The translations under genes and the position numbers were made by a program. Below the pieces are notes generated by a model. That model was not told where the DNA came from. It ran no database searches and saw only the letters and a list, made by a program, of their open reading frames with translations. From assembly GCA_001781095.1 (NCBI GenBank), contig MFKU01000014.1:1-59528 (forward strand): a stretch of 59,528 bases of DNA, given 5' to 3'. Source of the stretch: Candidatus Kaiserbacteria bacterium RIFCSPHIGHO2_01_FULL_53_31 (lineage in GTDB: Bacteria; Patescibacteriota; Minisyncoccia; Phycocordibacterales; Phycocordibacteraceae). Shown here one piece after another: positions 32,677 through 36,390 of the stretch. Within the stretch, counting starts at the first letter, position 1. Each line of letters opens with the position of its first letter.

Positions 32677-33063
32677 ATGAACGACTGTATTTTCTGCAAA
32701 ATTGTGGCGGGTGAGATTCCTGCCGACAAGGTATATGAAGATGAGGACTTTCTTGCCTTCTTGGATATCCACCCCGCGTCATGTGGGCACACACTGATTA
32801 TTCCCAAAAAACACTATCGATGGGTATGGGACCTGCCTGCCGACAGGCAGGCGTCCCCGAACATTGGCGCCTACTTTGAAGTGGCTCAGAAGATCGCTCG
32901 CGCTCTGCAAAAAGCATTTGATCAAGAAGCAATTTGGAGCGGCATCAAGGGAGACGAGGTGCCGCACGCACATGTCTCTATCCTTCCTCATTCGAAGACG
33001 AAAGGAAATAAAAAAGATTTTGCCGGTAACGCAGCAAAAATCCGAGCAAATCTGGCTGCTTGA
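32677..33063 (+). CDS. HIT family hydrolase
   Basis: This encodes 128 residues. The start NDCIFCKIVAGEIPADKVYE and the C-terminal histidine triad region DEVPHAHVSILPHS are clear. The triad reads HAHVS: the first and central (nucleophile) histidines are kept, but the third is Ser. HIT proteins hydrolyse nucleotide phosphoramidates or dinucleotides. DLPADRQAS in the middle is encoded by a palindrome inserted in frame. The stop overlaps the -35 box of the DGR target promoter. Confidence 0.9.
   Translation: MNDCIFCKIVAGEIPADKVYEDEDFLAFLDIHPASCGHTLIIPKKHYRWVWDLPADRQASPNIGAYFEVAQKIARALQKAFDQEAIWSGIKGDEVPHAHVSILPHSKTKGNKKDFAGNAAKIRANLAA
32832..32851. repeat. CCTGCCTG palindrome inside the HIT gene
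   Basis: CCTGCCTG CCGA CAGGCAGG is a perfect 8-bp hairpin with a 4-nt loop, translated in frame as LPADRQA. This palindrome is a common dispersed repeat in Parcubacteria genomes (recalled, not checked). HIT proteins do not need these residues, so it is probably an insertion. Confidence 0.6.
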
Positions 33064-33087
33064 CAATAGACAACATTCGTGTATACT
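33060..33087 (+). promoter_or_regulatory. strong promoter of the DGR target gene
   Basis: TTGACA (33060-33065, exact consensus) and TATACT (33082-33087, 5 of 6) are separated by 16 bp. The -35 box overlaps the HIT stop codon. Transcription would start near 33094, leaving a leader of about 155 nt. Confidence 0.75.
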
Positions 33088-33116
33088 ATACAGATAGTTC
33101 TTTGATATCAACTTGC

Positions 33117-33183
33117 GTTCGCCACAGCAGAAAGTGGCTTTCCGTCAGCTGGCGGATCTAGGCCGTTCTCTGCTGTGGCGAAC
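33117..33183 (+). promoter_or_regulatory. long hairpin in the 5' leader of the DGR target gene
   Basis: GTTCGCCACAGCAGA (33117-33131) pairs perfectly with TCTGCTGTGGCGAAC (33169-33183). The loop contains the palindrome CCGTCAGCTGGCGG, related to one at 44.12 kb. A second small stem (GCTAC/GTAGC) and a Shine-Dalgarno (aggagg) precede the ATG. It may attenuate or stabilise the message. Confidence 0.55.
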
Positions 33184-33250
33184 TCACTAACGAGAAGACC
33201 ACCAATACTGAGGCTACCCGCAAAGGAGTAGCGCTCAATAGGAGGAACCT

Positions 33251-33949
33251 ATGAGCAAAGCAACATTCGGACAGGCGCTTCAGGCGTTGAATCTGATTCA
33301 CGCAAAGGACCCGACTGCAGAACGCCTCACGGCGCTCTACAACTCCGGCATCCTCGCGGATGTGCTCGACGCAGACCTTTCGAAGGTCGAACGCGATGCT
33401 GTCCGTGCTGCGCTCAAGCTCGGAAGCATCTTCACTCGCAACGAGCACGGCCACGTTGTCGTGACCTTCACCGGTCTCGACATTACGGGTGCCGAGGAAA
33501 TCGCTCGGCTCGAAGCAGGCGGGTACCGCGTGGGCAACTACGCGAAGCAGTGCTTCACGAGCACGAACGACGACAGCTACGACAAGTGTCATCGTCTCGT
33601 CGCCGGTCAGCAGTATCGGATCGCCCTCGTCCCCGGAAAGGACATCGAGCGCGATTCCGAGCGGACAACCGCAGCCCTGCAGAAACTCGGCGAGAAGTGC
33701 GGCTATGGCAAGGCGCTCGGCGGACATATCCCGCGAATCCGAGAGATCATCTCGGACAAGCAGATGGAAGAAATGGGGATCTGGTACATCGCAGCCCTCC
33801 ATGACCCCATCAAGAATTCCGGCGGCGACCCGAGTGTGCTCGACGTCTACCGCTACGATGGCGAGCGATGGGTCAGCACCTATTGGGGCTCTCCCGACAG
33901 TCAGTGGGATGGCAGTGGCGCTTTCGCGTTTCCCGTTGCCGCAAGTTAG
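33251..33949 (+). CDS. DGR target (variable) protein with C-type-lectin-like C-terminus
   Basis: This encodes 232 residues after an AGGAGG site and strong promoter. The N-terminal part (TAERLTALYNSGILADVLDA; HVVVTFTGLDITGAEEIARL) is a conserved-looking body without signal peptide. The C-terminal half (IPRIREIISDKQMEEMGIWY, then residues 190-231 covered by the VR) fits the CLec fold of DGR targets. Residues that differ from the TR are Asp192, Ser195, Asp198, Tyr200, Ser214, Asp220, Gly221 and Ser222, so they line a presumed ligand-binding face. The ligand is unknown. Confidence 0.88.
   Translation: MSKATFGQALQALNLIHAKDPTAERLTALYNSGILADVLDADLSKVERDAVRAALKLGSIFTRNEHGHVVVTFTGLDITGAEEIARLEAGGYRVGNYAKQCFTSTNDDSYDKCHRLVAGQQYRIALVPGKDIERDSERTTAALQKLGEKCGYGKALGGHIPRIREIISDKQMEEMGIWYIAALHDPIKNSGGDPSVLDVYRYDGERWVSTYWGSPDSQWDGSGAFAFPVAAS
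33818..33944 (+). repeat. DGR variable repeat (VR)
   Basis: This is the 3' end of the target gene, aligned to the TR with an offset of 479. Mismatches lie at 33827, 33834, 33842, 33848, 33891, 33908, 33912 and 33915; each corresponds to A in the TR (six A to G, one A to T, one A to C). The invariant 3' part, from 33916 (TGGCGCTTTCGCGTTTCCCG onward), should contain the initiation site for mutagenic homing. Confidence 0.92.
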
Positions 33950-34003
33950 CACTTAGGACTTGGAACCTTGGTCTTTTGGACTTAGGAACTTTGTTCTTCG
34001 TAT

Positions 34004-34039
34004 TTGGGCTCCGCTCGCTTCACTGCGCGCGGAGCCCAA
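34004..34039 (+). terminator. hairpin after the DGR target gene
   Basis: TTGGGCTCCGC (34004-34014) pairs with GCGGAGCCCAA (34029-34039), an 11-bp stem with a 14-nt loop about 60 bp after the VR. No U-tract follows. In some DGRs a hairpin or cruciform just downstream of the VR promotes retrohoming, so it may be such an element or a terminator. Confidence 0.5.
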
Positions 34040-34296
34040 TCTGTTTTGATACACTGCAAGTGGCAGTAGGTGCATACGCGGGAGATTACGGTTTCCCGCT
34101 ACCGAACCCAGTATCCATACATCCAGAATATTCGCGATTACGGTTTCGGGTACCGTGGTGTATGCAGACACTTCAAAAATTGAAGATACTTGGTGTGGAG
34201 TGCTCTGGCATTACAGATGCCGAAGACCGCGGGACCCCCGCAGACAGCCCCGAGAGTATTCAAGGGTGCAGTGATATGGACGGCACTCCACACATC

Positions 34297-34423
34297 TCCG
34301 GCGGCAACCCGAATGTGCTCAACGTCAACCGCTACGATGGCGAGCGATGGGTCAGCACCTATTGGGGCTATCCCGACAGTCAGTGGAATGACAATGGCGC
34401 TTTCGCGTTTCCCGTTGCCGCAA
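34297..34423 (+). repeat. DGR template repeat (TR)
   Basis: A non-coding copy of the VR in the same orientation. It contains AAC/AAT-type codon positions (GGCAACCCGAATGTG, CTCAACGTCAACCGC, TGGAATGACAATGGC) that diversify best under adenine mutagenesis. Upstream homology with the target gene decays with gaps (34273-34296), indicating an old duplication. The TR RNA would run on the strand opposite to avd, whose stop is 22 bp away. Confidence 0.92.
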
Positions 34424-34444
34424 CTCCCTTCACTTCTCGCCCCG

Positions 34445-34786
34445 CTATACGCGGGGTTGAGTTTTGCCTAGCTGCCCGTTCCAACCACCCAGCATTTTAC
34501 CGATTTCTTCAATCGGGACGGAGAGCGCAACGTATTTCTTCGTATCGAGTGATTTTGTCTCCCAGAGCACGAGTAACATCACCTTCAGGGTATCCAGTTT
34601 GCGAATGGCGAGCCGTACCCATGGCTGTTTTTCGGTTTTAGCGAGGAAAGTTGCAGAGGAGATCGCTTCTATCGTTTCTACAAAGAGCTCGTCTATCTTT
34701 CCGCCGAGAGTGTATCGATGTGTCTTGGGAATGGTCTGATAATATCCGTACCAAAGGATATATGCTGTCTTCAAACGCTCAAGCAC
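34445..34786 (-). CDS. avd: four-helix-bundle protein, Avd-like DGR accessory factor
   Basis: This encodes 113 residues from GTG 34786 (LERLKTAYILWYGYYQTIPK). Signatures of the CPR four-helix-bundle/bAvd family are RYTLGGKIDELFVETIEAI, VRLAIRKLDTLKVMLLVLWE and IGKMLGGWNGQL. Avd forms a basic barrel that binds the RT and the TR RNA. Codons upstream of the GTG (QRLLPVLERLK) still fit the family, so the true start may lie across the poly-G tract. Its strand is opposite to target, TR and RT. Confidence 0.88.
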   Translation of the reverse strand: MLERLKTAYILWYGYYQTIPKTHRYTLGGKIDELFVETIEAISSATFLAKTEKQPWVRLAIRKLDTLKVMLLVLWETKSLDTKKYVALSVPIEEIGKMLGGWNGQLGKTQPRV

Positions 34787-34800
34787 GGGGAGAAGTCGTT

Positions 34801-34810
34801 GGGGGGGGGG
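34801..34810. repeat. run of ten G at the divergent avd/RT 5' ends
   Basis: Ten consecutive G lie 15 bp upstream of the avd GTG and in the 5' part of the open RT frame. A TTG at 34799 after GGGGAG would enter the RT frame with 9 or 12 G. An ATG on minus at 34818 would enter the avd frame with 8 or 11 C. With 10 neither is in frame. This is either a phase-variable tract or an assembly error. Confidence 0.7.
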
Positions 34811-34856
34811 TTACTCATGGACGCTCGTATACGACGATATCATTTCGGTCGAGAAT

Positions 34857-35822
34857 TTGCTTGAAGCTTGGCGCGAGTTCAAACGAGACAAGCGCAAACG
34901 CGCTGATGTGCAGGAGTTTGGGAGAAACCTGATGAGCAATGTTCTCGACCTACATCGAGAACTTGCGACCGGTACGTACCAGCATGGTGGCTATCATCAT
35001 TTCAAGATAAGCGATCCAAAACCGCGTGATATCCACAAGGCGAGTGCGCGCGACCGGCTCGTACATCACTCGCTTCATCGAAAACTATATCCATTCTTCG
35101 ATCGCATCTTTATTGCTGACTCATATTCTTGTCGTATCGAGAAAGGAACGCACAAGGCGATGAATCGCTTTCGCGCATTCGCCTACAAAGTTTCGCAGAA
35201 CAACACACGCACCTGCTGGGTTCTCAAGTGCGACATTCGCAAATTCTTCGCGTCTATCGATCACGAAGCGCTCGTCCGTATCTTGCGTGCACATATTTCT
35301 GATGAGCGTCTGATGTTGCTTCTTGTAAATATTATCGGCAGTTTCAATTCAGACACTGTGGGGAGAGGTCTCCCGCTCGGGAATCTCACATCACAGTTAC
35401 TGGTAAACATTTACATGAACGAGTTTGATCAGTTCGTGAAGCATAAAATCAAAGCGAAGTATTACATCCGCTACGCTGATGATTTTGTGATTTTCTCCCA
35501 TGACCGAACTCATCTGGTAGAAATACTTCCATATATGGACGTATTTCTACGTTACCAGTTGAAACTTAAAATGCATCCGAACAAGGTTTCCATCGCAACC
35601 CTCTCTTCTGGCGTCGACTTTCTGGGCTGGGTCCATTTTCCCGATCGCCGCGTGCTACGTACGAGCACAAAGAAGCGAATGTTTAGAAACATACAAGAGA
35701 AGCAAGGGCACGAGGCAACAGTCCAGTCGTATCTCGGCCTGTTGAGTCATGGGAATGCTTGGAAACTTCAAGAAAGTGTAAAGTCCTTGCACGAGGTAGC
35801 GCTCGCGAAGCATTCGGTTTGA
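34857..35822 (+). CDS. DGR-type reverse transcriptase
   Basis: This encodes 321 residues from TTG 34857; the open frame continues upstream through LVYDDIISVEN (34824-34856) to the poly-G tract with no standard start, so the real N-terminus is about 20 residues longer. RT motifs: CDIRKFFASID (palm Asp), GLPLGNLTSQ (the DGR form of motif 4), YYIRYADDFVIF (catalytic YADD), GVDFLGWVHFP. No maturase or endonuclease domain is present, which argues against a group II intron. It copies TR RNA into adenine-mutated cDNA. Confidence 0.92.
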   Translation: MLEAWREFKRDKRKRADVQEFGRNLMSNVLDLHRELATGTYQHGGYHHFKISDPKPRDIHKASARDRLVHHSLHRKLYPFFDRIFIADSYSCRIEKGTHKAMNRFRAFAYKVSQNNTRTCWVLKCDIRKFFASIDHEALVRILRAHISDERLMLLLVNIIGSFNSDTVGRGLPLGNLTSQLLVNIYMNEFDQFVKHKIKAKYYIRYADDFVIFSHDRTHLVEILPYMDVFLRYQLKLKMHPNKVSIATLSSGVDFLGWVHFPDRRVLRTSTKKRMFRNIQEKQGHEATVQSYLGLLSHGNAWKLQESVKSLHEVALAKHSV

Positions 35823-35857
35823 CAGGGAAGGCATACCTAAAGTAGTATATTGGTATG
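35819..35857 (+). promoter_or_regulatory. promoter and possible operator of the toxin-antitoxin genes
   Basis: TTGACA (35819-35824, overlapping the RT stop) and TAGTAT (35843-35848) are spaced by 18 bp. CATACC (35832-35837) and GGTATG (35852-35857) form an inverted repeat covering the -10 region and the start codon, a plausible binding site for the antitoxin. Confidence 0.55.
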
Positions 35858-36130
35858 AATACGAAGACAACCATCACCATCAAAACCGACAAGAAGTTGC
35901 GTGACGCAGCGAAGCGCACGGCCATGAAATTGGGCATTCCACTCTCAACCGTGATGAATGCCCAACTTGCGCAATTCGTCTCCGAAGGGCGTTTTGAGGT
36001 GTCGCTCACTCCCCGTCCTGAAAGGGTACGAGCATGGGAACGCATAAGTGAAGAAATGGATCAACACCCGGAGCGCTATAAAGTGTTTACGAATGCCGAT
36101 GACTTGCTTGTTGATCTCGGTCTCGCATGA
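35855..36130 (+). CDS. RelB/DinJ-family antitoxin
   Basis: This encodes 91 residues. The N-terminus TTITIKTDKKLRDAAKRTAMKL (ribbon-helix-helix, in two parts: TTITIKTDKKLRDAAK and RTAMKLGIPLSTVMNAQLAQ) is typical of RelB/DinJ; the C-terminal half would wrap the toxin. It overlaps the toxin gene by 4 bp (ATGA), the usual coupling. It lies directly after the DGR reverse transcriptase. Confidence 0.88.
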   Translation: MNTKTTITIKTDKKLRDAAKRTAMKLGIPLSTVMNAQLAQFVSEGRFEVSLTPRPERVRAWERISEEMDQHPERYKVFTNADDLLVDLGLA

Positions 36131-36390
36131 TCATTGTCTACGCGTCCAGCTTTAAAAAGCAGATTCGCCACTTGCCTCCGGGGATCAAACGGGCACTGTC
36201 TGAACGATTGCGTCTGTTCGTGGACATGCCATACCACCCATTACTCGACAATCACGTATTGAAGGGAGATCGCCGCGGATACCGTAGCATCAATATCACC
36301 GGTGACTGGAGAGTTATCTATGAATATGTTGACGCAACAAACGTACGACTCATCGAAATAGGCACGCACCACGATCTGTACGGTACCTAG
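36127..36390 (+). CDS. RelE/YafQ-family mRNA interferase toxin
   Basis: This encodes 87 residues: IIVYASSFKKQIRHLPPGIK at the start, HVLKGDRRGYRSINITGDWR in the middle and LIEIGTHHDLYG at the end, matching YafQ-type toxins that cleave mRNA on the ribosome. The C-terminal His of HHDLYG is the expected catalytic residue. The stop overlaps convergent pgk by 4 bp. Confidence 0.88.
   Translation: MIIVYASSFKKQIRHLPPGIKRALSERLRLFVDMPYHPLLDNHVLKGDRRGYRSINITGDWRVIYEYVDATNVRLIEIGTHHDLYGT

Follow-up and report, generated by a model that had tools for sequence, protein, structure and literature searches.

The stretch of DNA analysed here (the window, 59,528 nucleotides) comes from a 667-kb genome of the Patescibacteria type whose closest relatives are Kaiserbacteria/Paceibacterota MAGs, in line with the Parcubacteria-like origin proposed in a preliminary description of the sequence. 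A complete diversity-generating retroelement (DGR) had been placed at positions 33251-35822, and the target gene, variable repeat (VR), template repeat (TR), Avd gene and reverse transcriptase (RT) gene are indeed all found there. The reported repeat pair is real: two copies of 127 nt, both on the + strand (VR, 33818-33944; TR, 34297-34423), lie 479 nt apart and are 94% identical. They differ at 8 of 127 positions, and since all eight mismatches fall at adenines of the 34297-34423 copy, which has 26 A among its 127 positions (chance about 3e-6), this copy is the template. A genome-wide comparison of the 667 kb revealed no match to the TR beyond the VR. Among 76 related loci, 1213 of 1255 VR/TR mismatches are located at TR adenines; at the level of sequence, these A-specific differences make membership of the DGR family unambiguous. 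Taken alone, the element is an ordinary Patescibacteria/CPR DGR, of an already known kind.

The target gene (33251-33949, + strand) is an open reading frame encoding a protein of 232 amino acids with no known domain; searches against Pfam-type, NCBIfam and phrog profiles returned no family match. About ten relatives share the C-terminal VR and, in part, the N-terminal region. The protein had been described as unsecreted, and inspection by eye agrees with this, as no signal peptide or obvious hydrophobic stretch was seen at its start. The C-type-lectin-like fold proposed for it was not confirmed: its AlphaFold model (pLDDT 80, pTM 0.70), which was computed from only 11 sequences, gave no significant Foldseek match in the PDB or BFVD.

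Upstream of the target gene, sequence comparison identified a strong sigma-70-type promoter, TTGACA-16-TATACT (33060-33087, + strand), and a similar promoter precedes 37 targets that were chosen for having one. The leader contains a boxA-like motif, GTTCTTTGA (33097-33105, + strand), which recurs in many target leaders and might have a role in antitermination. Further downstream, an inverted repeat forms a conserved hairpin of the target mRNA (33114-33186, + strand), with compensatory changes at 13 of 21 pairs in an alignment of 18 leaders. This arrangement of boxA-like motif and covarying hairpin (33097-33186) is common to many CPR DGR targets and resembles an antitermination leader.

A second structured RNA is located 5' of the TR (34062-34293, + strand). 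Its alignment, which like that of the target leader comprises a subset of loci sharing the motif and not all relatives, contains 21 sequences and 56 base pairs, 40 of which show changes on both sides, with 97.1% of cells paired. None of 500 shuffled controls scored as high, and structures slid along the alignment reached 35-56%. A 12-bp helix (34193-34204 with 34282-34293) closes the domain 3 nt before the TR. An Rfam search gave no match, and the domain is a candidate new RNA family. Just 3' of the TR lies a hairpin with a T-rich tail (34439-34465, + strand), which could be terminator-like or serve as a cDNA-priming spacer; a comparable hairpin follows the TR in most relatives inspected. These elements suggest that the TR is carried on a discrete RNA of roughly 400 nt, distinct from the layout of the Bordetella phage BPP-1 DGR.

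The Avd-like protein of the preliminary description is borne out by matches to PF22296 (bAvd, E 2e-11, above the curated cut-off), to NCBIfam DivGenRetAVD (NF033474, E 2e-15, below that model's curated cut-off) and to phrog_3206, annotated as 'Avd protein of DGR'. The RT matches RVT_1 (E 2.5e-25) and carries the motifs GLPLGNLTSQ and YADD, with a motif of the GxxxSQ type. Its closest solved structure is 8ub7_A (E 3e-41), an entry titled 'Reverse transcriptase' that we take to be the BPP-1 DGR enzyme, and every other RT matches at 1.8e-15 or weaker. The NCBIfam matches of the RT include no DGR RT model; group_II_RT_mat is among them, below its cut-off. The structural match and the motifs support a DGR-type enzyme, as first described, over a group II intron or retron RT. 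The avd gene (34445-34818, domain 34445-34810) is on the minus strand between the TR and the RT gene (34762-35822, + strand), so that the two genes are antisense and divergent, an orientation that had not been stated before. The same head-to-head arrangement is found without exception in the 152 distinct junctions of related loci, which come from Patescibacteria and viral contigs; a sense avd occurs only in more distant relatives (L119, L120 and the second DGR of L037). Degenerate or broken RTs, with a frameshift or stops, were seen in two related loci, L042 and L104; the tract at the L104 junction has decayed, and its sister L107 is intact.

The DGR is followed by a RelB/DinJ-like antitoxin and a YafQ/RelE-like toxin (35855-36390), which lie between it and pgk. 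We rejected this pair as a part of the DGR, as it is not found near related DGRs. In about 27 relatives of the same genus, recJ-HIT-pgk-tpi are contiguous without a DGR, and the DGR and toxin-antitoxin pair (33064-36386) have therefore been inserted between the HIT gene and pgk.

The most interesting feature of the locus, absent from the preliminary description, is a slippage tract at the avd/RT junction. This simple-sequence repeat, G10 (34801-34810), is embedded in the overlapping 5' ends of avd and the RT gene, and we propose it as a phase-variation tract. Because of it, the deposited sequence has no in-frame ATG start for either gene. The avd ATG (34818-34816) is out of frame at G10 and in frame at G11; ATG 34762 requires G11 (or G8) to be in frame with the RT, and the mechanical open reading frame of the RT starts at TTG 34857. 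With G11 (or G8), Avd would read MSNPPP(P)QRLLPVLERL... and the RT would read MLSSNAQARGEVVGGG(G)YSWTLVYDDIIS..., and G10 yields neither, so a single slip is predicted to turn both genes on or off. A QISLF-like sequence, reminiscent of a sliding-clamp-binding motif, appears in some ON-phase RT N-termini and was interpreted as a side effect of the antisense Avd codons.

A simple-sequence repeat occupies this junction in 128 of the 152 distinct relatives' junctions (about 84%). Its unit varies widely, from G7 to G14 through (GA)n, (TTGG)n, (TTCG)n, (ATTG)n and (CTGA)n to (TGGCGGC)n. In 834 kb of related loci, 74 of the 78 poly-G/C runs of at least 8 were within 11 kb of junctions, and shuffling predicts such a run near the junction in less than 1% of loci. 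The 667-kb genome of the window has G8 or longer at four sites only; the junction G10 is the longest and the other three are exactly G8. Sister loci with RT DNA 81-90% identical carry TTGG, ATTG, TTCG or G tracts at one site; CTGA and 7-mer tracts were found in this same clade, and (GA)n requires several changes on the tree. Such different units at a single site in close relatives are hard to explain unless slippage itself has been kept. Further slippage tracts were noted in L037 (5980-6030 and 7840-7875), namely a G9 within a promoter spacer and a G10 immediately 5' of the sense avd of its second DGR.

The start of the Avd domain adjoins the tract, and an ATG between tract and domain exists in only 8 of 128 loci, so there is no conserved internal start; beyond the tract, an Avd ATG is usually available in one frame out of three. 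As assembled, with the caveat that homopolymer lengths may be wrong, an in-frame Avd is seen in 28 of 128 loci with a tract versus 20 of 24 without one (Fisher p=1.5e-8). With phylogenetically independent pairs the contrast is borderline, with about 4.5 pairs for and 0 against (median p 0.06), because few pairs are available. Among six viral-contig relatives with an antisense avd, five (L113, L114 and L116-L118, with one junction common to L116 and L117) have no tract and an Avd in frame; the sixth, L115, has a G8. Positions 1-2797 of L115, an IMG/VR contig, end in an exact 125-bp terminal repeat and would form a 2672-bp circle, either real or an assembly artefact, that holds the DGR alone (target, TR, antisense avd, G8 and RT) without a replication gene. 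There are also loci, such as L055 and L177, in which the tract is lost and Avd has no in-frame ATG, and GTG or TTG starts within Avd could yield some truncated protein. On the RT tree the phase changes 43 times, against 46.3 +/- 2.7 after shuffling, and thus carries no phylogenetic signal; tract presence changes 16 times against 21.6 and is clustered.

Coupling of the two genes depends on where the RT can start. In 95 of the 128 tract loci a possible RT start (ATG, GTG or TTG) lies right of the tract, and therefore only Avd would switch there. In the remaining 33 loci, which include the window, an upstream RT ATG is in frame in 32 of 35 Avd-ON phases and in 9 of 64 Avd-OFF phases (p=1.5e-14); after phylogenetic correction this coupling is likewise one-directional and borderline. 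The idea that ON loci have more mutated VRs than OFF loci was rejected, as the two groups show no difference in the fraction of TR adenines that are mutated.

We considered whether the junction could be explained without a switch. An ordinary DGR might be constitutively active, with the G tract a neutral or assembly-prone homopolymer and with Avd starting at GTG 34786 and the RT at TTG 34857. Mechanical open reading frames with these starts do exist, poly-G lengths are prone to error, and three assemblies (L058, L078 and L100) have an N at or near the tract. However, the tract is found at one site in 128 of 152 junctions and almost nowhere else in the flanks, and 2-, 4- and 7-nt units occupy the same site; moreover, the GTG and TTG starts are not conserved and would delete conserved residues of both Avd and RT. 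We thus regard a constitutive element as improbable. Transcriptional or ribosomal slippage, programmed to give a fixed share of in-frame Avd and RT with the DNA unchanged, appears the least probable explanation of all. Homopolymers can make a polymerase stutter and most assemblies are out of frame, but repeats of tetra- and heptanucleotides, which also occupy this site, do not fit slippage by polymerase or ribosome, and all three phases occur.

The tract could also work mainly through transcription, by setting promoter spacing or as part of an RT leader, and not through reading frames. In L037, a G9 lies within the 17-nt spacer of TTGCCA-17-TATAAT upstream of another gene; that gene has a signal-peptide-like start. 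A T is common directly after the tract, and RT ATGs are often 13 nt beyond it. There is, however, no conserved -10 or -35 hexamer near the tract, for which reason we rejected the tract as a fixed promoter element, and the in-frame Avd of tract-less loci would be left unexplained. We regard a mainly transcriptional role as slightly less probable than a constitutive DGR, although such an action could be additional to an effect on reading frames.

The explanation that best accounts for these observations, and which we consider very probable from the comparative evidence, is a functional-type DGR whose activity is phase-variable through the junction repeat. Replication slippage in the cell would alter the length of a hypermutable repeat (G10 in the window) placed where the divergent avd and RT genes overlap at their 5' ends. 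Usually, one tract length of three (mod 3) would connect Avd to its own ATG, and in window-like loci the same length would also connect the RT to its upstream ATG; a single slip could then change the expression of the two mutator genes, one on each strand. The DGR itself would act by mutagenic retrohoming, with the TR copied into the VR of a target protein that is small and apparently cytosolic. If Avd is needed in this lineage, there would be no retrohoming without it, so the VR would stay as it is in OFF cells and be diversified in rare ON cells. As assembled, with G10, the window is predicted to be OFF for both Avd and RT, because the ATG of avd is in another frame and the RT has no proper start; 11 G would restore both. 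The earlier proposal that this cell diversifies a protein is supported as to the complete set of DGR parts and incomplete as to the assembled genotype.

Several features of the locus are shared with the BPP-1 DGR (mtd-avd-TR-brt), namely A-specific TR/VR differences, the same RT family, Avd and a C-terminal VR in the target. In BPP-1, avd is in sense orientation and the RNA of the TR is flanked on its 5' side by the 3' end of the avd coding sequence (PMC12875486). In the window, avd is antisense and downstream of the TR, a separate structured non-coding domain lies 5' of the TR, and avd and RT meet at their 5' ends in a slippage tract. Retrohoming of BPP-1 in E. coli falls to background with stop codons in avd, and this 2026 study of the best-known DGR treats regulation as a matter of speculation (PMC12875486). 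By description, the DGR of the window is similar to clade 2, the Patescibacteria-restricted group of DGRs described by Roux et al. (2021), in host group, its being a cellular DGR, a target without recognisable domain and low reported activity; in the passages available from that study, clade 2 is below average in activity and viral DGRs are highest, and those passages mention no simple-sequence-repeat switch, antisense avd or pair of conserved RNAs (PMC8144416). The junction also resembles the simple-sequence-repeat contingency loci of Neisseria and Campylobacter (PMC6321876, PMC3786947), in which the reading frame is switched by a hypermutable tract within the 5' part of the coding sequence: here too the repeat lies in 5' coding sequence, its number sets the frame, and frames differ between relatives. 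Those loci control surface or modification genes, whereas here the switch would act on the genes of a targeted mutator, and a single tract can serve a pair of genes encoded on opposite strands. In the open-access literature we found no paper describing a DGR with repeat slippage or phase variation, an antisense avd or poly-G. Our best reading of the compared sequences is that a slippage switch conserved across Patescibacteria is new relative to known DGRs.

Patescibacterial DGRs would then probably combine two tiers of hypermutation, in which the tract randomly switches a targeted mutator, so that rare cells diversify while the others keep a proven binding protein. The covarying RNA by the TR offers a means to find and engineer CPR DGRs. 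If the switch is true, the annotation of DGRs in Patescibacteria suffers systematic damage, since the starts of avd and RT look broken, and a heritable random switch would explain the lower apparent activity of CPR DGRs compared with viral ones (PMC8144416).
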